The translations under genes and the position numbers were made by a program. Source: Candidatus Hydrogenedentota bacterium (GTDB taxonomy: Bacteria; Hydrogenedentota; Hydrogenedentia; Hydrogenedentales; CAITNO01). Taken from it: a stretch of 60,756 nucleotides of DNA. Where the stretch lies: NCBI GenBank assembly GCA_012730045.1, contig JAAYBR010000086.1, positions 1-60,756 on the forward strand. The letters run 5' to 3'. The notes beneath the pieces were generated by a model, which saw only the letters and a list, made by a program, of their open reading frames with translations, was not told the origin of the DNA and did not search any database. Of the stretch, positions 6,043-30,006 are shown one piece after another. Position 1 is the first letter of the stretch. Each line of letters begins with the position of its first letter.

Positions 6043-6360
6043 GGCGCGCAGAGCGAAGCTCCTTGGAGTGCGGCAGCTTGCTGCCGCCTTTCTCCGCGCG
6101 GGCTTGCCCGCGCGCGGGGGCTCCGTGACGAAACTGGGCGGGACGTTTTTCCGAATCTTGCGCGGGCCCCGGTCTGAAAGGCGCAAGCAAGCTTGCGCAC
6201 TCCAAGGCGCGCTGCGCGCGCGCGCGGGGAGCACGGGCAGCGTCCCGTGTTCCCGGCCCTCTTTGGCCAACCATCTCAACCCCGGCGGTGCACAGAGCGA
6301 AGCTCCTTGGAGTGCGGCAGCTTGCTGCCGCCTTTCTTCGCGCGGGCTCGCCCGCGCGCC
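6043..6360. repeat. Cluster of double-hairpin dispersed repeats
   Basis: Three copies of one family: 6043-6121 (plus), 6167-6228 (minus, degenerate) and 6291-6360 (plus). The core is two consecutive hairpins with two-base loops, CGGCAGC-TT-GCTGCCG then CGCGCGGGC-TT-GCCCGCGCG, preceded by GAGCGAAGCTCCTTGGAGTG. Further copies are at 13628-13690, 29534-29605 and 60072-60147. The block fills the divergent gap between the helicase genes on the two strands. No gene is supported inside it. Confidence 0.88.
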
Positions 6361-6371
6361 AAACGAAAAAG

Positions 6372-6401
6372 TTGATGCCGGGCGTACTAGCGGGCTACCA
6401 T
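6372..6401 (+). promoter_or_regulatory. Candidate sigma70 promoter of the PLD-helicase/methyltransferase operon
   Basis: TTGATG (6372-6377), 18-base spacer, TACCAT (6396-6401), just after the repeat cluster. It would start transcription near 6408 and leave a leader of about 75 bases. An in-frame ATG at 6400 would then lie inside the -10 box, which favours the ATG at 6484 as the real start. Confidence 0.4.
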
Positions 6402-6483
6402 GGCTGAACGGGGCGGGTGGCCCGAAAATGACCACCACAAGCGCGGGGGCCTGACCGGTCCCAAGAGTCAAGGGCGGACAGGC

Positions 6484-9400
6484 ATGGAAGAAAACAGGGT
6501 TGCGGCGAATTCGGGGATCATTGACAACCAGCGCAGGGGGAAAGTGGCGGAGTTTCTCAAGGCGCACATTGTCGAAGGCAGTGCCCTGTCCGTTGTTTCC
6601 GCGTATTTCAACATTTATGCCTATGGGGCGCTGTCGGCCCATCTGGACCGGATTGGCGGCATGCGTTTCCTCTTCGGGGAGCCGGGCAACGTCACCACTG
6701 TGGACCCAGAGCGCTCCGAGAGCAAGGCTTTCACAATCCAGGGGCGGGGATTGTCCCTTGAGAATCAGCTTCACCAGAAGGAAGTCGCCCTCCGGTGCGC
6801 CCGGTGGATCGAGGATAAGGCCGAAATCCGCTCCATACGCGAGTCCAACCTTCTCCACGGGAAGCTCTACCACATCCACGACGGCCACCGGGAGCACGCC
6901 CTCCTCGGCAGCTCCAACTTCACCCTCCGCGGGCTGGGCGTGGCCGCCACCCCGAACATTGAGCTGAATCTGGTGGTGGACGGCGACCGCGACCGGGCGG
7001 ACCTTAAGGCCTGGTTCGACGAGCTGTGGGGGGATGCGGACCGTGTCGAGGACGTCAAGCAGAAGGTGCTCGAAACCATCGCGAAGCAGTACACGGACCA
7101 CTCCCCGGAGTTCGTGTACTTCAAGACGCTCTTTCATGTGTTTGATCGGTTTTTGCAGGAGGGGGACGACGACGCCCGGCTCTTCGACCGGACCGCCATC
7201 GTGGACACGGACATCTGGCGCGCCCTCTACGACTTCCAGAAGGACGGCGTCAAGGGCGCCATCAACAAGATCAACGCCCACAACGGCTGCATCCTCGCCG
7301 ACAGCGTCGGCCTCGGCAAGACCTACACCGCCCTCGGCGTCATCAAGTATTTCGAGCTGCGCAACCACCGCGTGCTCGTGCTCTGCCCCAAGAAGCTCAA
7401 GGACAACTGGACGGTCTACCTCGCCCAGAACAACAGCACCCTGAACCCCTTCCTGCGCGACCGCTTCGCCTACACCGTCCTCGCCCACACCGATCTCTCC
7501 CGCGACGGCGGCCAGTCCGACGGCATAGACCTGGGCACCCTCAACTGGGGCAACTACGACCTCGTCGTCATTGACGAGTCCCACAATTTTCGCAACAACA
7601 CGCGGGGCCGCCAGGACGAGGACGGGAATGTCATCCGAAAGAGCCGCTACGAGCGCCTCATGAAGGACATCATTGAGGCGGGGGTCAAGACCAAGGTGCT
7701 CCTTCTCTCCGCCACGCCGGTCAACAACGACCTAAGAGACCTGCGCAACCAGATTTACATCGCCACCGAAAACAATGACAACGCCTTCTCGGAGTCCTTT
7801 GGGGTGCCAAGTATCAACGCAACCCTCTCCACCGCGCAGAAGACCTTTACGGAATGGGCGCGCGGCCAGGGCGACAAAGACGTCCGGGTGCTCATGGACC
7901 GCCTGCCCGCCGGTTTTTTCACCCTCCTCGACGAGCTGACCATTGCCCGCTCCCGCAAGCATATCCAGCGCTACTACAAGGCCACGCTGGCGGAGATTGG
8001 CAGTTTCCCCCGCCGCCTCAAGCCGATTTCCCTCATCTCGGAGATAGACCTGAAAGGGCGCTTCCTCTCCTACGACCGCCTCAACGACGAAATTGCAAAC
8101 TACCAGCTCTGCCTGTTCAATCCCTCCCGATATGTCCGGGAGAAGTTCCAGGCGATTTACCAGGAGGACAAGTACAAGAACTTGTCCCAGGCCAACCGCG
8201 AGCGTTTCCTCATCGGCATGATGAAGGTCAACTTCCTCAAGCGTCTCGAAAGCTCCGTCCACTCCTTTGCCGTCACCATGGCGCGCACCGTTGACAAGAT
8301 TGAAGTCTTGGAAAAACGCCTGAGGGCGGCCAAGGAACAGGGTTCGCGCGCGGTCACGCTGACGGTCCAGGAGGATATGTTCGCCCCCGAGCAGCTCGAA
8401 ATAGAAATGCCCGGAGATGAGTGGGAATTGTCGAACGTCTCCGAGGTCATTGGCCGCCGAGAGTTCCAGATAAAGCACCTTGATGTGGACCAGTGGCTCA
8501 AGGACCTGGCGAAGGACAAGCAGCAGCTCTCCATGCTCTCCAGCCACGCCCAGGCCGTCACCGCCGACCGCGACGCCAAGTTGCGCGACCTGCGCGGCAT
8601 TATCGAGGAAAAGGTCAAGCACCCGACGGTCAACAGCCGCGGCGAGGCCAACCGCAAGGTGATTGTGTTCTGCGCCTTTGCCGACACGGCGGCCTACCTC
8701 TACGAGAACCTCGAGACATGGGCCAGGGAGGAGCTGGGCATCCACATCGCCCTCGTGTCCGGCGGCACCCGGCCCAACCGCACCACCCTGGGCCGCCCCA
8801 ATTACACGGATATCCTCGTCAACTTCGCGCCCCGGGCCAAGCAGCGCGACAAGATGCCCGCCTTCCCGCAGAACGAGGAGATTGACCTCCTCATCGCCAC
8901 CGACTGCATCAGCGAGGGCCAGAACCTCCAGGACTGCGACCTCCTCGTCAACTACGACATCCACTGGAACCCCGTCCGCATCATCCAGCGATTCGGGCGC
9001 ATTGACCGAATCGGCAGCCTGAACAAGGAAATCCAGCTCGTCAATTTCTGGCCCACCCCCGACCTCAACAAGTACATCAACCTCAAGAACCGCGTCGAGG
9101 CCCGCATGGCCCTCGTGGACCTCTCCGCCACCGCCGAGGACAACATCCTCCAGGCCGACGACCTCCGCGAGCTGATCCAGGCCGACCTCCGCTACCGCGA
9201 CCGCCAGCTCCTCCGGCTCAAGGACGAAATCCTCGACCTCGAGGACTTCAACGAGTCCGTCGCCCTCAGCGAGTTCAACCTCAACGACTTCCGCATGGAG
9301 CTTGCCAACTACATCGCCGCCAACCGCGAGCGCCTCGAAAAGGCCCCCTTGGGCCTCTACGCCCTCGCGCTCCCGGACTCCGAATATCCCCAGGTCCGCC

Positions 9401-9816
9401 CCGGCGTCATCTTCTGCCTCCGCCACACCGGCGAGGGCCGGGGCAACGAGGCCGTCAACCCCCTCCACCCCTACTTCCTCGTCTACATCCGCGACGACGG
9501 CGAGGTCCGCTACACCTTCACGAGCCCCAAGCAGATTCTCGAAATCTACCGCTCCCTCTGCCTCGGCGTCGGCGAGCCCTGGCGCGGTCTCTGCGACCTC
9601 TTTGACCGCGAGACCGACAACGGCCGGGACATGGCGCACTACAGCGCGCTCCTGCAAAAGGCCGTCGCCTCCATCGCCGCCACCTTCCGCAAACGCGCCG
9701 CCTCCGGCCTTCAGTCCGGCCGCGGCTTCGTCCTGCCGAACGCCCGCGAGCAGGTTCAAGAGGACACGGACCTCGAACTCATCACCTGGCTGGTCATCAA
9801 GGAGGACATTGCATGA
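6484..9816 (+). CDS. PLD-nuclease-like / SNF2-family helicase
   Basis: Protein of 1110 residues. Residues about 20-190 are a phospholipase D-like domain with one HKD-type motif (His125-Gly-Lys127, then GSSNFT at 142-147). This is the layout of PLD-family nucleases, although the usual Asp is one place late (Asp133). Residues about 260-950 form an SF2/SNF2 ATPase: motif I SVGLGKT (274-280), motif II DESH (364-367), motif III SATP (409-412), motif V IATDCISEGQNLQ and motif VI IIQRFGRIDRIGS. The long insert between the helicase lobes (about 520-730) is charged and helical. The gene overlaps the methyltransferase by ATGA, implying coupled synthesis of a complex. Likely role: translocase plus nuclease of a restriction-like defence system, inferred from domains and partner. 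An alternative start is 6400. Confidence 0.87.
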   Translation: MEENRVAANSGIIDNQRRGKVAEFLKAHIVEGSALSVVSAYFNIYAYGALSAHLDRIGGMRFLFGEPGNVTTVDPERSESKAFTIQGRGLSLENQLHQKEVALRCARWIEDKAEIRSIRESNLLHGKLYHIHDGHREHALLGSSNFTLRGLGVAATPNIELNLVVDGDRDRADLKAWFDELWGDADRVEDVKQKVLETIAKQYTDHSPEFVYFKTLFHVFDRFLQEGDDDARLFDRTAIVDTDIWRALYDFQKDGVKGAINKINAHNGCILADSVGLGKTYTALGVIKYFELRNHRVLVLCPKKLKDNWTVYLAQNNSTLNPFLRDRFAYTVLAHTDLSRDGGQSDGIDLGTLNWGNYDLVVIDESHNFRNNTRGRQDEDGNVIRKSRYERLMKDIIEAGVKTKVLLLSATPVNNDLRDLRNQIYIATENNDNAFSESFGVPSINATLSTAQKTFTEWARGQGDKDVRVLMDRLPAGFFTLLDELTIARSRKHIQRYYKATLAEIGSFPRRLKPISLISEIDLKGRFLSYDRLNDEIANYQLCLFNPSRYVREKFQAIYQEDKYKNLSQANRERFLIGMMKVNFLKRLESSVHSFAVTMARTVDKIEVLEKRLRAAKEQGSRAVTLTVQEDMFAPEQLEIEMPGDEWELSNVSEVIGRREFQIKHLDVDQWLKDLAKDKQQLSMLSSHAQAVTADRDAKLRDLRGIIEEKVKHPTVNSRGEANRKVIVFCAFADTAAYLYENLETWAREELGIHIALVSGGTRPNRTTLGRPNYTDILVNFAPRAKQRDKMPAFPQNEEIDLLIATDCISEGQNLQDCDLLVNYDIHWNPVRIIQRFGRIDRIGSLNKEIQLVNFWPTPDLNKYINLKNRVEARMALVDLSATAEDNILQADDLRELIQADLRYRDRQLLRLKDEILDLEDFNESVALSEFNLNDFRMELANYIAANRERLEKAPLGLYALALPDSEYPQVRPGVIFCLRHTGEGRGNEAVNPLHPYFLVYIRDDGEVRYTFTSPKQILEIYRSLCLGVGEPWRGLCDLFDRETDNGRDMAHYSALLQKAVASIAATFRKRAASGLQSGRGFVLPNAREQVQEDTDLELITWLVIKEDIA

Positions 9817-12800
9817 GCGGTGGCGCCCCCGTGACAGCGGCCCTCGCCCAGTTCCAGACCCTCCCGCTCAAGGATGCCGCCCGCCAGCTCTTTGCGAAGC
9901 TGGGGTACGAGAGCGACCGGTTCCTCGCCGGCGCGGGCTCCACGCCGCAGGACTTCCTCGGTCACTTCGCCGCCGGCCGCCCCTTCGACCAGGCCAAGGC
10001 CCTCGTCCCCGAGTGGACATCCGCCGACCTCCTCTTCCAGCTCACGGACCAGGAGCTCAGCCGCGAATACAGCCTTTTCACCGACGACTCCGTCCAGCGC
10101 GGCCTGCTCAAGTCGTACGTCTTCGTCGCCATCGGGCTCAAGGGCCGGGACTACGCCCGCGGCAAGTTCTCCGCCGTCGCCCGCCAGATCAACCGCCTCT
10201 TCCCCATGCCCGTCATGGTGCTCTTCAGGCACGGCGACCGCCTCACCATCGCCGTCATCAACCGCCGCCGGAACAAGCTCGACGACAGCAGGGACGTCCT
10301 GGAAAAGGCCACCCTCATCCGCGACATCAGCTTCGCCCAGCCCCACCGCGGCCACCTCGACATCCTCGCCTCCCTCGCGCTGCCCAATCTGGTCCACCCG
10401 CAGAAGAAGCCCATCACCGACTTCGACACCCTCCACGCCGCGTGGGAGCAGATATTCAACGTCGAGCTGCTCAACGAGCGCTTCTACCGCGAGCTGGCCA
10501 ACTGGTACTTCTGGGCGCTCCCGCAGGTCAAGTTCCCCGACGACCTGGAGCCCAATGAGGAGAAACGCCGCGCCACCGGCCTCATCCGCCTCCTCACCCG
10601 CCTCATCTTTTGCTGGTTCATCAAGGAAAAGGACCTCATCCCGGAAAAGCTCTTCCACCCCGCAGACCTCGCAGGAATCCTCAAAGACTTCGATCCCGAG
10701 AGCGAGACCAGCTCCACGTACTACCTCGCCATCCTCCAGAACCTCTTCTTCGCCACGCTCAACCAGCGCATGGGCAGGGACAGCACCGGCAAACCGTACC
10801 GGTTCTTCGCCCGGGACGAGGGGTTTCAGAAGAACCGCGCCACCTATGACGTCAACACCCTCTACCGCTACGAGAGCCTCTTCGCCGTTTCCGAGGAGGA
10901 GGCGCTCGCCCTGTTCGAGGACATCCCCTTCCTCAACGGCGGCCTCTTCGAGTGCCTAGACCGCACCGAAGACGGCACCGACCGAAAGCTTTACCTCGAC
11001 GGCTTCTCCCGCATCGCCAGGAAGCGCCCGCATGTCCCCGACCGCCTCTTCTTCGACAGCGGGGAAACCGCCGACCTCTCTGAAGTCTATGGCGACAAGA
11101 AACGGAAATCCGAAAAGGTCACCGGCCTCATCACCCTCCTGAACCGCTACAAGTTCACCATCGTTGAAAACACCCCCATAGACCAGGAAATCGCCCTCGA
11201 CCCCGAGCTGCTCGGCAAGGTCTTTGAAAACCTCCTCGCCTCCTACAACGAGGAGACCAAGACCACCGCCCGCAAGCAGACCGGCTCCTTCTACACCCCG
11301 CGCCCCATCGTGGACTACATGGTGGACGAGTCCCTCAAGGCCCACCTCACCCGCGCCCTCGTGGAACAGGCCACCATGAAGGAGCCCGACGCCCGCGCCG
11401 GACTGGACATTCTCTTCGCCTACACCGAGAGGGAGCACGCCTTCTCCGACGCCGAAGTCGCCTGCCTCATCGCCGCCATTGATTCGCTGAAAGTCCTCGA
11501 CCCCGCCTGCGGCTCCGGCGCCTTCCCCATGGGCGTCCTCCACAAGCTCGTCTATATCCTGGGCAAGCTCGACCCCGAGAACGACCTTTGGAAGCGGACC
11601 CAATTGGCCAAGCTCGACTCCGCCCCCATGCGCGAGGAGCTGGAGCGCGCCTTCGCCGACAACAACGACGACTACGGACGCAAGCTCTACCTCATCGAAA
11701 ACTGCCTCTACGGCGTGGACATCCAGCCCGTCGCCATCCAGATCACCAAACTCCGCTTCTTCATCTCCCTCGTCTGCGACCAGCGGACCAACCGGAACAA
11801 GAAGGAAAACCACGGCATCCGCCCCCTGCCCAACCTGGAGACCAAGTTCGTCGCTGCGAATAGCCTTATCGGACTGCCGGAGTTGGATCAGATGGAACTG
11901 GTCGATTCCCGTGTTTACGAAATCGAAGCGGAGATCGAATCCCTCTACCACAGTCACTTCTCAATCCAGCGACGCGACCAGAAGCTTACCCTCCAGCGCC
12001 AGATCAAAGCCCTCCGTCAAGACCTCGCCACGCTCCTCGCCGACACTGCCATGTCTCCGTCGAAGTCCAAACTCGTCGCCGGGTGGGACCCCTTCGATCC
12101 GCAAACCTCCGCAGGCTTCTTCGAGCCGCACTGGATGTTCGGCATTTCAGTAGCCGACGGGTTCGACGTCACCATCGGGAACCCACCCTATGTCCGCGCA
12201 GACGAGCAAAGCGAGGCAAACATAGCTCAGCGAGCCGCTATCCTTGCCAGCAAACAATACGAGACTCTTTGGGAAAAATGGGACCTTTTTGTCCCGTTCC
12301 TTGAACGCTCCTACAACCTACTCCGCCCGGGCGGTGTTAGCACCATGATCGTCTCAGATGCCTTTTGCCATTCCAAATATGCACAGAAGGCTCAGAATTG
12401 GTTCCTGCAAAACGCCCGCATCCTTCGCCTCGACTTCTGCGGTGAAGTCAAAATTTTCGACGCGGCCGTTCACAACGTCATCACCTGCTTCCAAAAAGCC
12501 GACAGCGCAAACTGGAAGCCTGAGAGACGCTTGCATCGGGATGTATTCGGTGAAGTCGTTAAGCTTTCCAGCGATGAACAGGCGAAGTCGAGCTATCGCG
12601 CGTTTTTCCCGCACGATGACGAGCATGACGGCTTTACCAGCCCAACGTTGCCTATCTGTGAAATTTGCTACCTCAGCTACGGTCTCGCGGCTAGCAGCGA
12701 TGAAAAGCTGCACAAAGGGGAGTTCGTCACCCAGGATGTAACGCAAGATTTCAACGATGACAGACATCCGAAGCCTTGGGTGGAGGGAAAACTTCTAGCT

Positions 12801-13418
12801 AAGTGGCTGCCTCTTAGCAACCGCTGGCTTGAGTGGGGGACAAGGCGCGCGCCGAGCCACTTCAGGCGAATCACTTTCGAGGAACTCTACGAAGTGCCGG
12901 AGAAGATTCTCATTATGAGGGTTGCCGGAAGCGATCTGCGCTCCTGCTATGATACAAGGCAGCTCTACACGAATCACACTTCGATTATCGCGGTGCCCTG
13001 GCACTTGCTGCGCGGCGTCCGAAATAACTCACTAAAAAAAGCCGCTCGCTATCGTGGCGAGAAGCCGCTTCGCCCCGACCTCCCGAAACGCGAGGAACTG
13101 GAGGCCACCAGCCGTCGTTTCCCAGTGAAATACCTGCTTGGCGTGATGAACTCCGCCAGCGCCCGCGATTTCCTTCGCTGCAACAGGCGCAGCAATACAG
13201 ACCTTTACCCCGACGACTGGAAGAAGCTCCCTATCCCCGATGTTTCCGCCGATCAGCAACAACCGATCATCGATCTCGTCGATCATATCCTCAGCCTCAA
13301 ACGCGTCAATCCAGTCGCCGACATCGACGCCCTAGAAACCCAAATCGACGCCGCCGTAGCCTCCCTCTACGGCCTGACGCCGGAGGAAATCGCCATCGTG
13401 GAGGGCACCGCCCCATAA
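9813..13418 (+). CDS. Eco57I-like adenine-specific DNA methyltransferase with N-terminal domain and TRD
   Basis: Protein of 1201 residues. The N-terminal part (about 1-480) resembles the regions fused to type IIG/Eco57I-like enzymes; I do not see an unambiguous PD-(D/E)xK triad in it. The methyltransferase core has the SAM motif I VLDPACGSGAF (561-571), QTGSFYTPRPIVDYMV upstream of it, and the N6-adenine catalytic motif NPPY (790-793). A target-recognition region follows to about residue 1180. GGAGG lies 7 bases before the ATG, which overlaps the helicase stop. From roughly 11,850, and clearly from 12,190 to 13,250, codon use is less GC-biased than in the first half. This fits exchange of the recognition domain. 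Probably methylates host DNA and supplies specificity for the PLD-helicase; could instead act alone as a type IIG-like enzyme. Confidence 0.88.
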   Translation: MSGGAPVTAALAQFQTLPLKDAARQLFAKLGYESDRFLAGAGSTPQDFLGHFAAGRPFDQAKALVPEWTSADLLFQLTDQELSREYSLFTDDSVQRGLLKSYVFVAIGLKGRDYARGKFSAVARQINRLFPMPVMVLFRHGDRLTIAVINRRRNKLDDSRDVLEKATLIRDISFAQPHRGHLDILASLALPNLVHPQKKPITDFDTLHAAWEQIFNVELLNERFYRELANWYFWALPQVKFPDDLEPNEEKRRATGLIRLLTRLIFCWFIKEKDLIPEKLFHPADLAGILKDFDPESETSSTYYLAILQNLFFATLNQRMGRDSTGKPYRFFARDEGFQKNRATYDVNTLYRYESLFAVSEEEALALFEDIPFLNGGLFECLDRTEDGTDRKLYLDGFSRIARKRPHVPDRLFFDSGETADLSEVYGDKKRKSEKVTGLITLLNRYKFTIVENTPIDQEIALDPELLGKVFENLLASYNEETKTTARKQTGSFYTPRPIVDYMVDESLKAHLTRALVEQATMKEPDARAGLDILFAYTEREHAFSDAEVACLIAAIDSLKVLDPACGSGAFPMGVLHKLVYILGKLDPENDLWKRTQLAKLDSAPMREELERAFADNNDDYGRKLYLIENCLYGVDIQPVAIQITKLRFFISLVCDQRTNRNKKENHGIRPLPNLETKFVAANSLIGLPELDQMELVDSRVYEIEAEIESLYHSHFSIQRRDQKLTLQRQIKALRQDLATLLADTAMSPSKSKLVAGWDPFDPQTSAGFFEPHWMFGISVADGFDVTIGNPPYVRADEQSEANIAQRAAILASKQYETLWEKWDLFVPFLERSYNLLRPGGVSTMIVSDAFCHSKYAQKAQNWFLQNARILRLDFCGEVKIFDAAVHNVITCFQKADSANWKPERRLHRDVFGEVVKLSSDEQAKSSYRAFFPHDDEHDGFTSPTLPICEICYLSYGLAASSDEKLHKGEFVTQDVTQDFNDDRHPKPWVEGKLLAKWLPLSNRWLEWGTRRAPSHFRRITFEELYEVPEKILIMRVAGSDLRSCYDTRQLYTNHTSIIAVPWHLLRGVRNNSLKKAARYRGEKPLRPDLPKREELEATSRRFPVKYLLGVMNSASARDFLRCNRRSNTDLYPDDWKKLPIPDVSADQQQPIIDLVDHILSLKRVNPVADIDALETQIDAAVASLYGLTPEEIAIVEGTAP

Positions 13419-13717
13419 ACCCACCGAGCGAGCGCCGGTTCCCCCGCCTCCCGTTGGCCAAAGCCGATGCCGGAGCCAGCCCCGACCTCCTGGCTGTCAT
13501 CAAACAGGAAGGCCGGGTTGGGTAGTCCGCAGATTGCGCAGATGTTCGCAGATTAGGGGGAGAGGGAAGATGCCGATCGGGAGATCGGCGTTCCCAGGGG
13601 GGCGCTTCCGCTGGGGTTCATCATGTGCCCCGGTCTGGAAGGCGGCAGCAAGCTGTCGCACTCCAAGGCGCGCTTTGCGCGCGGAAGGGGCTCTCGGATT
13701 GCGCAGGGACCCTGTCT
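13419..13717. other. Gap with one double-hairpin repeat
   Basis: Convergent gap between the methyltransferase and the polyferredoxin. It holds a minus-orientation copy of the double-hairpin repeat (13628-13690), whose second hairpin is decayed. A short open stretch (13424-13525) ends at a TAG but has no plausible start. I see no strong terminator. Confidence 0.6.
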
Positions 13718-17550: not shown

Positions 17551-18729
17551 TCAGACCCGGTTTCCGTCTGGCGGCTCCGTGCCCCGGTTCATGATCGTGA
17601 TGTAGCCCGTGTAGCTGAACAGGCGGTTGCGTTTTTGTGCGGTCAGCTCCCTGACGATGCCGAGCCGCTGCAGGTGGCCGAGCGCCTTGTTGACGGTGGC
17701 TGGCGTAAGGCCGGTCCTGGCCGACAAAGAGCCCGAGGTGGCGATGGGGTGCTCCATGAGCGCCCGGTGGATCTGAAAGGCCGACGCCGCCGCCCGGCCC
17801 AGACCGCCGATCCGGTCGCGGTCCCGGTTGGACAGGTCGAGAAGCTGCCGCGCCGTTTCCACCGCCTGGCCCGCGGTGACGGTGACCGCCTCGGCGAAGA
17901 AGTCCAGCCAGGCCTCCCAGTCCCCGTGCAGGCGCACATGGTCCAGAAGTTCATAGTAGCGCCGGCGGTGCGTCTTGAAATAGAGGCTGAGATAGAGCAT
18001 CGGCTTCCGAAGCACTTTCTGCTCGCACAGAAGCAGCGTGATCAGCAGACGGCCCAGACGGCCGTTGCCGTCGAGGAACGGATGGATGGTCTCGAACTGC
18101 ACATGCGCCAGCGCCGCCTTGAGCAGCACCGGGGTCGGCCCGGGCCGGTCATGGAGGAAGAGCTCCAGCCTGCCCATGCACTCCGGCACCGCTTCGGCGG
18201 GTGGCGGAACAAAGGCCGCGTTGCCCGGCCGGGTGCCGCCGATCCAGTTCTGGCTGCGCCGGAATTCGCCCGGCGCCTGCGCGCTTCCCCGGCCCCGGGC
18301 CAGCAGCACACCGTGTATTTCCCGGAACAGCCGCAGGGACAGCGGCAGGCCGCCCTCCAGCAGGCGCAGGCCGTGATCCAGGGCGGCGACATAGTTGCTG
18401 ACCTCCCGCACATCATCCAGCGGCACCCCGGGCGCCTGGTCCAGTTCGAACAGCAGCAGGTCCGACAGCGACGACTGGGTCCCCTCGATCATGGAGGAGA
18501 GCACCGCCTCCTTGCGGACATACATGTAAAGAAACAGCGACGTGTCCGGAAGCAATGTCGAGACACTGTCCAGCCGCCCCAGCGCCAGCAGCGCCTGGTC
18601 GAACTTGCCCCGCAGTTCGGGCGTCCAGAGGATCGGCGGGCGCGGCGGCAGCGGCGCGGGCACAAAGGCCCGGGCCTTTTCGCCCACCGTGCAGATGGTC
18701 ACATATCCGCCTTGAAGACCCCGTTTCAT
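17551..18729 (-). CDS. Fic family AMP-transferase with N-terminal inhibitory helix
   Basis: Protein of 392 residues. The chosen start (18727-18729) has GAGGAA 8 bases upstream and gives the usual Fic_N beginning MKRGLQGGYV, with FVPAPLPP shortly after. The inhibitory motif is SSMIEG (78-83, Glu82), as in Fic proteins that inhibit themselves in cis. The active-site motif HPFLDGNGRLGR starts at His216. The C-terminal 100 residues look like a winged helix (SGSLSARTGLTPATVNKALGHLQRLGIV). Such Fic proteins transfer AMP to a hydroxyl of a target protein. The DNA-binding-like tail suggests a link to its own regulation or a nucleic-acid target. No separate antitoxin gene is seen. A palindrome and AT-rich promoter-like DNA lie just upstream. 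Confidence 0.93.
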   Translation of the reverse strand: MKRGLQGGYVTICTVGEKARAFVPAPLPPRPPILWTPELRGKFDQALLALGRLDSVSTLLPDTSLFLYMYVRKEAVLSSMIEGTQSSLSDLLLFELDQAPGVPLDDVREVSNYVAALDHGLRLLEGGLPLSLRLFREIHGVLLARGRGSAQAPGEFRRSQNWIGGTRPGNAAFVPPPAEAVPECMGRLELFLHDRPGPTPVLLKAALAHVQFETIHPFLDGNGRLGRLLITLLLCEQKVLRKPMLYLSLYFKTHRRRYYELLDHVRLHGDWEAWLDFFAEAVTVTAGQAVETARQLLDLSNRDRDRIGGLGRAAASAFQIHRALMEHPIATSGSLSARTGLTPATVNKALGHLQRLGIVRELTAQKRNRLFSYTGYITIMNRGTEPPDGNRV

Positions 18730-18784
18730 CGCGTGTTCCTCGAACCTAAAATAAGCCACCCCGTTATTTTACCATAAAGACTTA

Positions 18785-19003: not shown

Positions 19004-21988
19004 ATGATACCCCTGCATGTCCACAGTCATTATTCCCTCTGCGAGGGGCTGGCCGCGCCGCGCCAACTGGTGGCGCGGGCGGTGGAGCATGGCATGAAGG
19101 CCCTCGCCCTCACGGATACCGGGGGACTGTACGGCACGGTTCCTTTCTACCAGGCGGCGCGGGAGGCTGGGGTGCGGCCCCTGCTGGGCGCGCACCTGGG
19201 GGCTTGCGTGGTGCTGGCGCGGGACCGGCAGGGCTATGCGGACCTGTGCGCCCTGGTGACGGCGGCGCATCTGGACGGCGCGGCATGGCTGGAGCCCTGG
19301 CCGGAGGCGGTGGACCCGTCCCGCCTGTTCCTCCTGTGCGCGGACCCAGCGCTGCTGCGGCGGCTGGTCCGGCGGGGGCTGTCCCCCCTGGCGGCGGTGG
19401 AGCATTACGGGGATGCGGCCTCGCATGGCCGCGCGGGGGCGATGGTGGCGCTGGCGAAGCGGCTGGGCGTGCCCGCCGTCGCCGTGGCGCCGGTGCATTT
19501 CGCGGACCCGTCCCACCACGCGGCGCACCGGGTGCTGGCGGCGATCCGGCACAACACCCTGCTGGACACGCTGCGTCCGGAGGACGCCGCGCCGCCCGGG
19601 GCGTGGTTTCGGTCGCCACGCCAACTGGAGCGGCTCTTTGCGCTCTGGCCGGAGACGCTGGACAACGCCCTCTGGGTGGCCGGGGAGTGCGATGTGGAAC
19701 TGGAGCTGGGCCGTCCCCTGTTCCCGGCCTTTCCCCTGCCGCCGGGGGAGACGCCGGAAAGCCGCCTCGAGCGGCTCACCTTCGAGGGGCTGCGGCGGCG
19801 CTACCCCCGGGTGCGGCGCGCGGCGGTGCGGCGCGCGCGGCACGAGTTGGACATCATCGCCCGGACGGGCTTCGCCTCTTATTTTCTCATTGTGGAGGAA
19901 CTGGCGGCTTTTGCGCGGTCGCGGGACATTCCGGTGGTGGGGCGCGGGTCGGCGGGAAACAGCCTGGTGGCCCACGCGCTGGGCATGACCCGCTGCGACC
20001 CCCTGCGCTACGGTCTCTATTTCGAGCGGTTTCTGAACCCCGGCCGGTCCGACTGCCCGGACATAGACCTGGACTTCTGCTGGCGGCGGCGCGACGAGGT
20101 CATCGCCCATGTCTATGAGGTCTACGGCGCCGACCGCACCGCCATGATCGGCACCTTCAACACCTTCCGGGGCCGGGCGGCGGCGCGGGACATCGGCCGG
20201 GTCTTCGGCTATCCGGAGGAGGAACTGGGCCGCATGACGCGCCTGCTGCCGCATGTCGGCGCGGGGGACCTGCGGACGGCCCTGCGCACGCCGGAATGCC
20301 GCGCCCTCCATCTGGCCGAGGGCCCCCTGCGGGAGCTGTTGGACCTGTGCGCCGCCCTGGACGGGTGCCCCCGCCACATGTCCGTCCACGCGGGCGGCGT
20401 GGTGGTCGCGCCCGACGCCCTCACCCGGCATCTGGCCCTGCGGCGGGCCGCCAAGGGGATCGTTGTCACGCAGGGCGACATGCACGCCGTGGAGGCCCTG
20501 GGGCTGGTCAAGATGGACCTTCTCGGCAACCGCGCCCTCAGCGTGCTCCACGACACCGCGGCGGCGGTCCGCGCGCGCCGCGCGCCGGCGTTCGACATCG
20601 AGACCGTGCCCTGCGACGACCCCGCCACCGCCGAAACCCTCCGGACGGGGCGCACCCTCGGCTGTTTCCAGATCGAGTCGCCCGCCATGCGCGGGCTCCT
20701 GCGCCGGGTGGCGGCGGGCGACACCAACGCCGTCATCCAGAGCATCGCCCTCGTGCGGCCCGGCGCCTCGGGCAGCGGCATGAAGCAGCACTTCATAGAC
20801 CGCCGCCTTGGCCGGGAGTCCGTGGCCTACGAGCATCCCGCCCTGGAGGCGGTGCTTGGCGAGACCCACGGCGTCATGATCTACCAGGAGGATGTGCTCA
20901 AGGTCGCCCATGCCGTCGCCGGGATGGACTTGGCGGAGGCCGACGCCCTCCGCCGCGCCATGGGCAAGAAACGCGGCCCCCACGAGATGGCCCGGCACAT
21001 GCGCCGCTTCCTGGAGATGGCGGAGGCAAACGGCGTGGACGGGGCGCGGGCCCGGCGCATCTGGGAACTCATCGCCCAGTTCGCGTCCTACGCCTACTGC
21101 AAGGCCCACGCCGCCGCCTACGGCGAGCTGGCCTGGCAGGCCGCCTACCTCAAGACCCATTTTCCCGCCGAATTCTTCGCCGCCGTCCTCGCGAACCGGG
21201 GGGGATTCTACGCCCCGGCGGTCTACGCGGAGGAGGCCAAACGGTGCGGGGTAATCCTGCTCCCGCCGGACATCAACCAAAGCGGGGCGGTGTGCGCCGC
21301 CGAGGGCGCGTCCCTGCGGGTGGGCCTGCTGGAGATCAAGGGGTTGGGCCGGGAGACCATCGCCCGGCTGCTGGCGGCGCGGGACGCGGACGGCCCCTTC
21401 GTCTCGGAGGGGGACTTTGGGGCGCGGGTGCCCGCCGCCCGCGACGAGCGCGAGGCCCTGTCCCGCGCCGGCGCGTTTGACGCGCTGGATCCCGCCGCCT
21501 CCGGACCGGCGCCGCTTTCCTCGTCCGTCCGGGAACACGGGGGTCAGGGAACCCTTTGGGGGACAGGCACGGTGGCCCCGGCGCGGCCCCGGCGTTCCGA
21601 ACGGGGCCGCGCCGATGACGAGCGGGAGGTGCTGGAGATTTTCCTGCGGGGGCATCCCCTCCGGGAGGCCGCGCCTTGGCTGCAGGACCGCTGTCTCACC
21701 CCGAGCGCCCTCCTGGACCGCTATGCGGGCCGGACCGTGGTGCTGGCGGGATGGCCCGTGGCCGAACGGCGGCTCGCCGTGCGCACGGGCACCGACGGCT
21801 GCATGAAGTTCATCAGCCTCGACGACGGCTGGGGCGTCTGCGAGACCGTTCTCTTTCCCGAGACCTACCGGCGGCTCGGGGCTGTCCTCGCGGCGGGCGG
21901 TCCCTGGGTGGTCACGGGCAGGGTGGAGGCCGATGACGGCAACCCCGTCCTGGTGGTCGAGGGCATGGAATGCGCGCGGCGCCGGTAG
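19004..21988 (+). CDS. Short DnaE-type DNA polymerase III alpha (error-prone DnaE-like)
   Basis: Protein of 994 residues, shorter than replicative DnaE (about 1160). In order it has a PHP domain (1-220, beginning LHVHSHYSLCEG), palm with the catalytic aspartates in PDIDLDF and the third acidic site in LVKMDLLGNRALS, fingers with MIYQEDVLKVAHAVAGM and RRAMGKKRGPHEM, tandem helix-hairpin-helix, and a C-terminal OB domain ending in GRVEADDGNPVLVVEG. There is no tail after the OB fold for clamp-loader tau. In the PHP domain the usual TDH metal ligand reads TDTGG, so PHP exonuclease activity is doubtful. Size and isolation from replication genes suggest a repair or mutagenic polymerase. imuA and imuB are absent nearby. 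Preceded by the inverted repeat at 18976-18991. Confidence 0.88.
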   Translation: MIPLHVHSHYSLCEGLAAPRQLVARAVEHGMKALALTDTGGLYGTVPFYQAAREAGVRPLLGAHLGACVVLARDRQGYADLCALVTAAHLDGAAWLEPWPEAVDPSRLFLLCADPALLRRLVRRGLSPLAAVEHYGDAASHGRAGAMVALAKRLGVPAVAVAPVHFADPSHHAAHRVLAAIRHNTLLDTLRPEDAAPPGAWFRSPRQLERLFALWPETLDNALWVAGECDVELELGRPLFPAFPLPPGETPESRLERLTFEGLRRRYPRVRRAAVRRARHELDIIARTGFASYFLIVEELAAFARSRDIPVVGRGSAGNSLVAHALGMTRCDPLRYGLYFERFLNPGRSDCPDIDLDFCWRRRDEVIAHVYEVYGADRTAMIGTFNTFRGRAAARDIGRVFGYPEEELGRMTRLLPHVGAGDLRTALRTPECRALHLAEGPLRELLDLCAALDGCPRHMSVHAGGVVVAPDALTRHLALRRAAKGIVVTQGDMHAVEALGLVKMDLLGNRALSVLHDTAAAVRARRAPAFDIETVPCDDPATAETLRTGRTLGCFQIESPAMRGLLRRVAAGDTNAVIQSIALVRPGASGSGMKQHFIDRRLGRESVAYEHPALEAVLGETHGVMIYQEDVLKVAHAVAGMDLAEADALRRAMGKKRGPHEMARHMRRFLEMAEANGVDGARARRIWELIAQFASYAYCKAHAAAYGELAWQAAYLKTHFPAEFFAAVLANRGGFYAPAVYAEEAKRCGVILLPPDINQSGAVCAAEGASLRVGLLEIKGLGRETIARLLAARDADGPFVSEGDFGARVPAARDEREALSRAGAFDALDPAASGPAPLSSSVREHGGQGTLWGTGTVAPARPRRSERGRADDEREVLEIFLRGHPLREAAPWLQDRCLTPSALLDRYAGRTVVLAGWPVAERRLAVRTGTDGCMKFISLDDGWGVCETVLFPETYRRLGAVLAAGGPWVVTGRVEADDGNPVLVVEGMECARRR

Positions 21989-29261: not shown

Positions 29262-30006
29262 CCGCCATGCCCCGGCGTGCCCCCCCCTGGGACCGCCAGG
29301 CTCCAGCCTGGCCCCGCGCGCCCAAGCGCGCGTCCCCTTTTCTTCCTTCGCGCGTTCCCAAGTTTTACTTGGGAATGCGCTTGCCAGCGAAGCTCCGCTT
29401 CGCGCCTCCTGAGGGTGAGGAAAGGACCGGGGTGTCCGCCGCAGACAGCGGCCACAGGATGAGCGGATATATCCTGCGCCAGAGAGAGGCGCAGAAAGGG
29501 GCGGTTTTCCCCGGAAAACCTGTCCTGCCACAACCCCGCGCGGGCAAGCCCGCACGAAGAAAGGCGGCAGCAAGCTGCCGCACTCCAAGGCGCTGCGCGC
29601 TGTGCGGACCCGGGGCTGCGGGAGGGCCGGAAACGTGGACGCGTCCTCTTGGCGCGTTCTTCGGGTCAACGAAAAACCCCTCGAACACGTCCGCGGCCGT
29701 TGCTGATCCGGCGATTTCCCTGATCGCCGGATGAGGCATCGCGAGAACCGAATCCGTCGCGGGAACGAGATTGCCGCGCTTCGCTCGCAATGACGGGAAA
29801 ACACGCGTCACTGCAATGACGGGAAAACGCGCGTCATTGCGAGGCGGCCGCCCCGGGCCGCCGCGGCAATCTCTTGTCGGAAGACCTCAGGTTCTCCACA
29901 CCTCATGGGTGATCACGCCCCTTTCCCACCGCCGCCGCTTTCAGCGTGAACCCCCAAGGTGTGCCTTCCCTCGAACACGTCCGCGGCCGTTGCTGATCCG
30001 GCGATT
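29262..30006. repeat. Composite region of dispersed repeats
   Basis: There is no credible gene between clpP and 30091. It contains a CCAGGCTCCAGCCTGG hairpin (about 29292-29307), a TTCCCAAG-TTTTA-CTTGGGAA hairpin (about 29356-29376), and a minus-orientation double-hairpin repeat (29534-29605). It also has a 39-base direct repeat present exactly twice, 290 bases apart (29678-29716 and 29968-30006). Between these lies a palindrome-rich block (about 29765-29880) carrying repeated CAATGACGGGAAAA units and GAGATTGCCGCG near its start, whose complement CGCGGCAATCTC closes it. That block is the kind of intergenic repeat seen in many GC-rich genomes. Confidence 0.75.

Follow-up and report, generated by a model that had tools for sequence, protein, structure and literature searches.

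Restriction enzymes that spend ATP on moving along DNA divide the labour of recognition, modification and cutting in different ways. In CglI and NgoAVII the nuclease is of the phospholipase D (PLD) type and also carries recognition, and the methyltransferase that goes with it makes 5-methylcytosine; the nuclease of SauUSI is likewise of the PLD type. CglI and SauUSI are ATP-driven translocating enzymes (PMC5737866, PMC7913695), and the type ISP enzymes LlaGI and LlaBIII unite an Mrr-like PD-QXK nuclease and an ATP-driven collision mechanism in a single chain (PMC3874165). In the type-2 DUF499 systems, which are BREX-related and Hma-like, a Swi2/Snf2 helicase with an HKD nuclease fused to its N-terminus accompanies an N6-methyltransferase, and both a DUF499 ATPase and DUF3780 are required (PMC12839542). 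Here we analyse a stretch of 60,756 nucleotides from a Candidatus Hydrogenedentota bacterium (assembly GCA_012730045.1, contig JAAYBR010000086.1; hereafter the window), in which two overlapping genes encode protein A, a PLD nuclease domain fused to an SNF2 motor, and protein B, a methyltransferase with its own recognition region. We consider it likely that A is the restriction subunit and B the modification and specificity subunit of a two-gene ATP-dependent restriction-modification system, coupled through a DUF4391 domain and cutting with the PLD nuclease.

A conserved nuclease-motor and methyltransferase pair

The initial annotation of the window had placed a PLD domain and an SNF2 motor in one protein, overlapping a methyltransferase gene by ATGA, and both the open reading frames and Pfam bear this out. 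Protein A matches PLDc_2 (1.7e-7), SNF2-rel_dom (7.9e-10) and Helicase_C (2.2e-15), and its best PADLOC profile, C3a139 'HKD+Snf2', extends over nearly its full length (9.4e-126). Protein B comprises, in order, a DUF4391-like domain, a helical region, an Eco57I-type N6-adenine methyltransferase and the recognition region, with Pfam matches to Eco57I (2.9e-28), N6_Mtase (3.4e-5) and DUF4391 (3e-5 over aa 117-211, below the cut-off of that family). The residues singled out earlier, His125, the Walker A motif and NPPY, are all present in alignments of A and B (Table 1); the start then given for the unit, 6372, was slightly early, the ATG of gene A at 6484 being the one that fits homologues, with the frame likewise open from an upstream ATG at 6400. 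The motor motifs hold throughout the 85 aligned A proteins, the PLD motif in only part of them.

When 84,980 bacterial and archaeal species genomes were scanned with the B alignment, at least 521 relatives were retrieved. The 80 best form our locus set; being ranked by similarity to B, they are not a random sample. They belong to Verrucomicrobiota, Planctomycetota, Pseudomonadota, Thermodesulfobacteriota, Chloroflexota, Poribacteria, Armatimonadota, Spirochaetota, Bacteroidota, Cyanobacteriota and other phyla. An A homologue lies upstream of B on the same strand in 61 of the 67 loci with enough upstream sequence, and the co-occurrence of the two genes therefore holds far outside the lineage of the window. 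Since full-length homologues of both proteins occur in many phyla, the pair is not a product of chance: A-B is a conserved unit.

The spacing between the two genes is -21 to 77 bp in 32 of these 61 loci and 0.1-2 kb in 26. Where the frame is readable, the intervening genes are often separate cargo: DUF1016/YhcG-related genes occupy the gap in ten loci (two assigned by Pfam, the other eight by their resemblance to one another), while Fic, ORF6N, Schlafen-AlbA, a Y1 transposase and a frame judged PIN-like by eye occur in one locus each. Type I operons carry similar cargo genes. In a Desulfobacula metagenome-assembled genome (L122), A and B share one frame of 1979 aa, which could reflect either a genuine fusion or a deletion introduced in assembly. 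Directly after B, 18 of the 58 loci with enough sequence carry a gene for an SMC/RecF-like ATPase (L054, L067, L069, L071, L072, L073, L075, L077, L079, L080, L086, L093, L094, L105, L122, L129, L131, L133). These ATPases are mutually related and mostly 460-640 aa long, and none of those adjoining B in relatives has a zinc hook (CxC/CxxC); as they lack the hook and are absent from the window, we regard them as optional. The description of the unit as a compact two-gene pair thus holds for the window, but elsewhere it is loosened by the ATPase gene and by the wider gaps.

Other genes recur around these loci. In many, the ATPase gene is followed by a further, varied gene, with weak matches to Argonaute profiles in L067 and L069. 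Large, mutually similar frames lie downstream of B in L088, L066, L094, L112, L115 and L132, mostly Poribacteria, and that of L088 contains a TIR domain and TPR repeats. In L105 a tandem array of three B-like genes follows one A.

The most variable part of B is its C-terminal region (aa 801-1201), in which pairwise identity per 50-residue block is 0.17-0.42 against 0.31-0.85 upstream. Nearest relatives differ from part to part: L078 for window A (69%), L065, L075 and L079 for the core of B (82-87%), and L064 and L068 for the recognition region (61-63%). Between the window and a congener (G001), DNA identity is 95% in the flanks, 92% in A and the first part of B and 84% in the methyltransferase core, whereas the recognition region fails to align. 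Because this region swaps independently, in the congener too, it follows the pattern of a specificity domain, and such swapping, as in restriction-modification, supports the restriction-like character first proposed for the unit. A common recognition region links L061, L062, L063, L064, L066, L068 and L076, which should accordingly share a methylation motif. The congener B gene (L041, G001:C418, about 1233-2045, - strand) also carries an inserted Y1 transposase domain (Pfam 3.2e-8), in frame and without a stop codon, between aa 519 and 531 in window numbering.

A DUF4391 domain shared with a type III form

An N-terminal domain had been noted in the methyltransferase. It is present and, on profile comparison and structural modelling, is a diverged DUF4391 domain, common to a sister type III form described below. 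Aligned with B aa 59-214, DUF4391 reaches 95.8% in hhalign (7e-9), and 90.8% with a second alignment; of seven control segments, six gave 0.1-0.6%; the other, from the methyltransferase core, scored 56% by aligning with the C-terminal helices of DUF4391, which we read as coiled-coil similarity. AlphaFold2 models of B 1-462 (predicted local distance difference test, pLDDT, 87) and of a free-standing DUF4391 protein (pLDDT 94) agree in element order, strand-helix-strand-helix-strand-strand-strand. A nuclease role for DUF4391 was considered and rejected, catalytic residues not being shared and a match in the PDB being absent; for the same reasons the domain is taken as an adaptor. The free-standing protein examined has no PADLOC match, and in the literature searched a single paper names DUF4391.

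Relatives of A on plasmids are 40-43% identical to window A over their full length and have different partners, the gene order being A, a DUF4391 gene and a type III Mod gene, often with further genes between. This sister form, usually completed by Res, occurs on plasmids, on IMG/VR contigs and in E. coli. Where the sequence of a split locus extends far enough, Mod is nearly always followed by a Res homologue (L145 is the exception); the Res genes of Acetobacter, Desulforapulum and L161 are broken or truncated, and the Aeromonas Res contains an RE_endonuc domain. In E. coli, an A relative and DUF4391 are found together on the chromosome in 54 of 5426 complete genomes, and the two loci inspected (L174, L175) have type III Mod/Res alongside and a helix-turn-helix regulator upstream. 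Among 29 plasmid DUF4391 genes collected by tblastn, 20 adjoin A by coordinates and six more by annotated regions; two others lie on further Lactococcus plasmids, equal in length to one inspected, and the last on a Sphingobium plasmid where A is interrupted and survives as three fragments.

When the alignment is split by partner, the PLD motif HxK...GSxN is kept in all 50 B-paired A proteins and lost in all 41 of the type III form (33 from the alignment, two of them on sequences that stop short of the partner gene, plus eight of plasmid or E. coli origin). Both groups keep the motor motifs. The nuclease motif is thus gone from A where another nuclease, Res, is supplied. B-paired and type III-form proteins lie on opposite sides of one branch (Shimodaira-Hasegawa-like approximate likelihood ratio test, 99), so the difference represents one evolutionary loss or gain and not 91 independent cases. 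Two outgroup A proteins beside B-like methyltransferases, from Planktothrix and Parabacteroides, both keep the motif, which makes loss in the type III clade the simpler reading, although long branches leave the root of the A tree unsure. It is conceivable, if somewhat short of an even chance, that the SNF2 motor and DUF4391 constitute a portable restriction module for different methyltransferases, with an active PLD domain when fused to the Eco57I type; one derived clade would then have joined type III Mod/Res, where Res cuts, the PLD site decayed and the motor-adaptor remained.

Proposed function, rival explanations and surroundings

The proposal that A-B is a restriction-modification system builds on what computation shows: the two genes are kept together, their active sites are intact, B contains a region homologous to DUF4391, and recognition regions are swapped. 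B would read its DNA site through the C-terminal region and methylate adenine (N6) at that site, and A would be recruited into a complex through the N-terminal DUF4391 domain of B. As each chain has one HKD motif, two copies of A probably have to come together to complete an active site. At an unmethylated site, ATP hydrolysis would drive A-B along the DNA, and on collision with a second complex the two PLD domains would meet and cut, by analogy with type ISP and CglI-like enzymes; in this way the pair may protect its host from phage.

Several observations weigh against this proposal. The window pair is not in an obvious defence island, its neighbours being housekeeping genes (PGI, a DinG-like helicase, ferredoxin and URO-D). 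At six B loci, five of them from Poribacteria, A is missing within 5-9 kb, so B can exist without it. Neither AlphaFold2 model finds a solved structure at E <= 0.001, and the coupling role suggested for DUF4391 is drawn from gene order and homology only.

One rival, which we think unlikely, is a defence of the BREX or DISARM kind: methylation would mark self, and A would act on phage DNA other than by sequence-specific cleavage, perhaps through the sensing of DNA ends or replication forks. DISARM class 1 (DrmD and DrmMI; PMC9142583) does pair an SNF2 helicase with an adenine methyltransferase, at a distant level of sequence similarity; A is distantly related to DrmD (PADLOC 3e-39; NCBIfam 1.1e-45) and HmaA (2.2e-27), and B matches DrmMI and PglX profiles. 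Yet NCBIfam matches of A and B to DrmD, DpdE and PglX all fall below cut-off, that of A to DrmD far below (156 against 610 bits), and DrmA, DrmB and DrmC are absent from the locus. Profile searches of the 97%-complete genome, in which control families matched, found neither PglZ, as BREX would have, nor DUF499, and the sole DUF1998/MZB gene, on contig C83, encodes a YprA-type helicase and not a DISARM component. The strictly kept PLD active site and a recognition region swapped as in site-specific restriction also speak against this rival.

It is improbable, too, that B works by itself, as a complete type IIG-like enzyme or an orphan methyltransferase, with A as a helper that acts separately (a remodeller, say, or a nuclease that processes ends). 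The best PADLOC matches of B are indeed type IIG profiles (1.1e-57), and the six loci without A fit such independence. But type IIG enzymes have a nuclease domain in the methyltransferase chain, and Pfam finds no nuclease family in B, whose N-terminal part is DUF4391-like, does not share catalytic residues and has no match in the PDB; the pairing in 61 of 67 loci and the single A-B frame of L122 also stand against it. Least probable is a remnant or epigenetic regulator that only methylates, with A degenerate or inactive in its host, for although the pair is isolated among housekeeping genes and the congener B carries a transposase, neither window gene is broken, all their motifs are conserved, and intact homologues occur in many phyla.

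If the restriction-modification proposal is correct, a widespread two-subunit architecture would be added to ATP-dependent restriction, a role would be suggested for DUF4391, and one family of restriction motors would offer a case in which the nuclease was replaced. The E. coli genomes with the sister form make the idea testable in ordinary laboratory strains.

Features of the window are collected in Table 1. A 29-base palindrome-bearing repeat, TTGGAGTGCGGCAGCTTGCTGCCGCCTTT, resembling repetitive extragenic palindromic elements, occurs in five copies with up to 3 mismatches (chance expectation 0). Near A-B lies a gene for a Fic family protein with a winged-helix domain (17551-18759, - strand; Pfam Fic_N 3e-25), and the window also encodes a DNA polymerase III alpha-type protein, possibly DnaE2-like (19004-21988, + strand; PHP, DNA_pol3_alpha).

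Table 1. Coordinates in the window of genes A and B, their domains and motifs, and the repeat (SAM, S-adenosylmethionine; TRD, target recognition domain).
Feature	Position	Strand	Evidence
Gene A, PLD-SNF2 protein, 1110 aa	6484..9816	+	Open reading frame, Pfam, PADLOC C3a139; start via homologue alignment
PLD active-site motif, H125-x-K127 ... GSSNFT 142-147 of A	6856..6924	+	Kept in 50/50 B-paired A proteins
Walker A DSVGLGKT, A 273-280	7300..7323	+	98-100% conserved, 85 aligned A proteins
SF2 motif II DESHNFR, A 364-370 (DESH 364-367)	7573..7593	+	96-100% conserved, 85 aligned A proteins
SF2 motifs V-VI CISEGQNLQD...QRFGRIDRIG, A 808-844	8905..9015	+	Mostly 95-100% conserved, 85 aligned A proteins
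ATGA stop/start overlap of A and B	9813..9816	+	Read from sequence
Gene B, 1201 aa	9813..13418	+	Open reading frame, Pfam, alignments
DUF4391-like domain, B about aa 59-214	9987..10454	+	Profile-profile comparison, AlphaFold2 topology
Helical region, B aa 215-460	10455..11192	+	AlphaFold2 model of B 1-462, mean pLDDT 87
SAM-binding motif DPACGSGAF, B 563-571	11499..11525	+	Conserved, 69 aligned B proteins
Catalytic motif NPPY, B 790-793	12180..12191	+	N, P, P in 69/69; Y in 66/69
Recognition (TRD) and C-terminal region, B aa 801-1201	12213..13415	+	Variability, swapped relatives
Repeat TTGGAGTGCGGCAGCTTGCTGCCGCCTTT	6063-6091, 6307-6335, 13638-13666, 29560-29588, 60090-60118		Copies on both sides of A-B

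Comparison with known systems

The initial annotation held that functions are split over two coupled proteins in a manner distinct from DISARM, BREX and type I, and this is supported by the missing core genes and the two-gene layout. There are no separate HsdR, HsdM and HsdS as in type I, since the locus has two genes only, with the recognition region inside B. The type-2 DUF499 (Hma-like) systems share the HKD-Snf2 fusion beside an N6-methyltransferase, but membership was rejected, DUF499 being absent from the genome. Pbe (CxC-ABC) was also rejected: A matches PbeA at 2.9e-11 only, no ATPase gene stands beside the window pair and the ATPases of relatives lack CxC/CxxC (DndE was not part of the search). 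The suggestion that the unit may be undescribed survives in part, in that no description of the pair was found in the literature searched, which covered few subscription papers, but the A family itself already has a PADLOC profile; C3a139 covers most of A in both forms (9e-126, 8e-127, 1e-122), though as a profile only.

The type III Mod/Res sister form has the same A family and a DUF4391 partner, and differs in its Mod methyltransferase, separate Res nuclease and lost PLD site. In the window an SF2 motor, a nuclease, a methyltransferase and a recognition domain are encoded together, the combination expected of ATP-dependent restriction-modification as a class. Recognition is placed in the methyltransferase in A-B, as opposed to the nuclease in CglI and NgoAVII, whose motor, of the DEAD family, and nuclease are separate proteins with a separate methyltransferase; common to both is ATP-dependent restriction, putative for A-B, by a nuclease paired with a helicase-like motor (PMC5737866, PMC4267653). 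SauUSI has nuclease and helicase-like ATPase in one chain, dimerises via its nuclease domains and translocates (PMC7913695), but is a type IV enzyme whose own TRD reads methylated DNA without a partner methyltransferase. With type ISP, A-B shares the order of nuclease, SF2 translocase, N6-adenine methyltransferase and a single recognition domain and, we infer, an ATP-driven collision mechanism; it falls outside that type in having two chains (a single frame only in L122), a PLD in place of an Mrr-like nuclease and the extra DUF4391-like domain. In layout A-B is closest to type ISP, and in nuclease chemistry it is closest to CglI and SauUSI.

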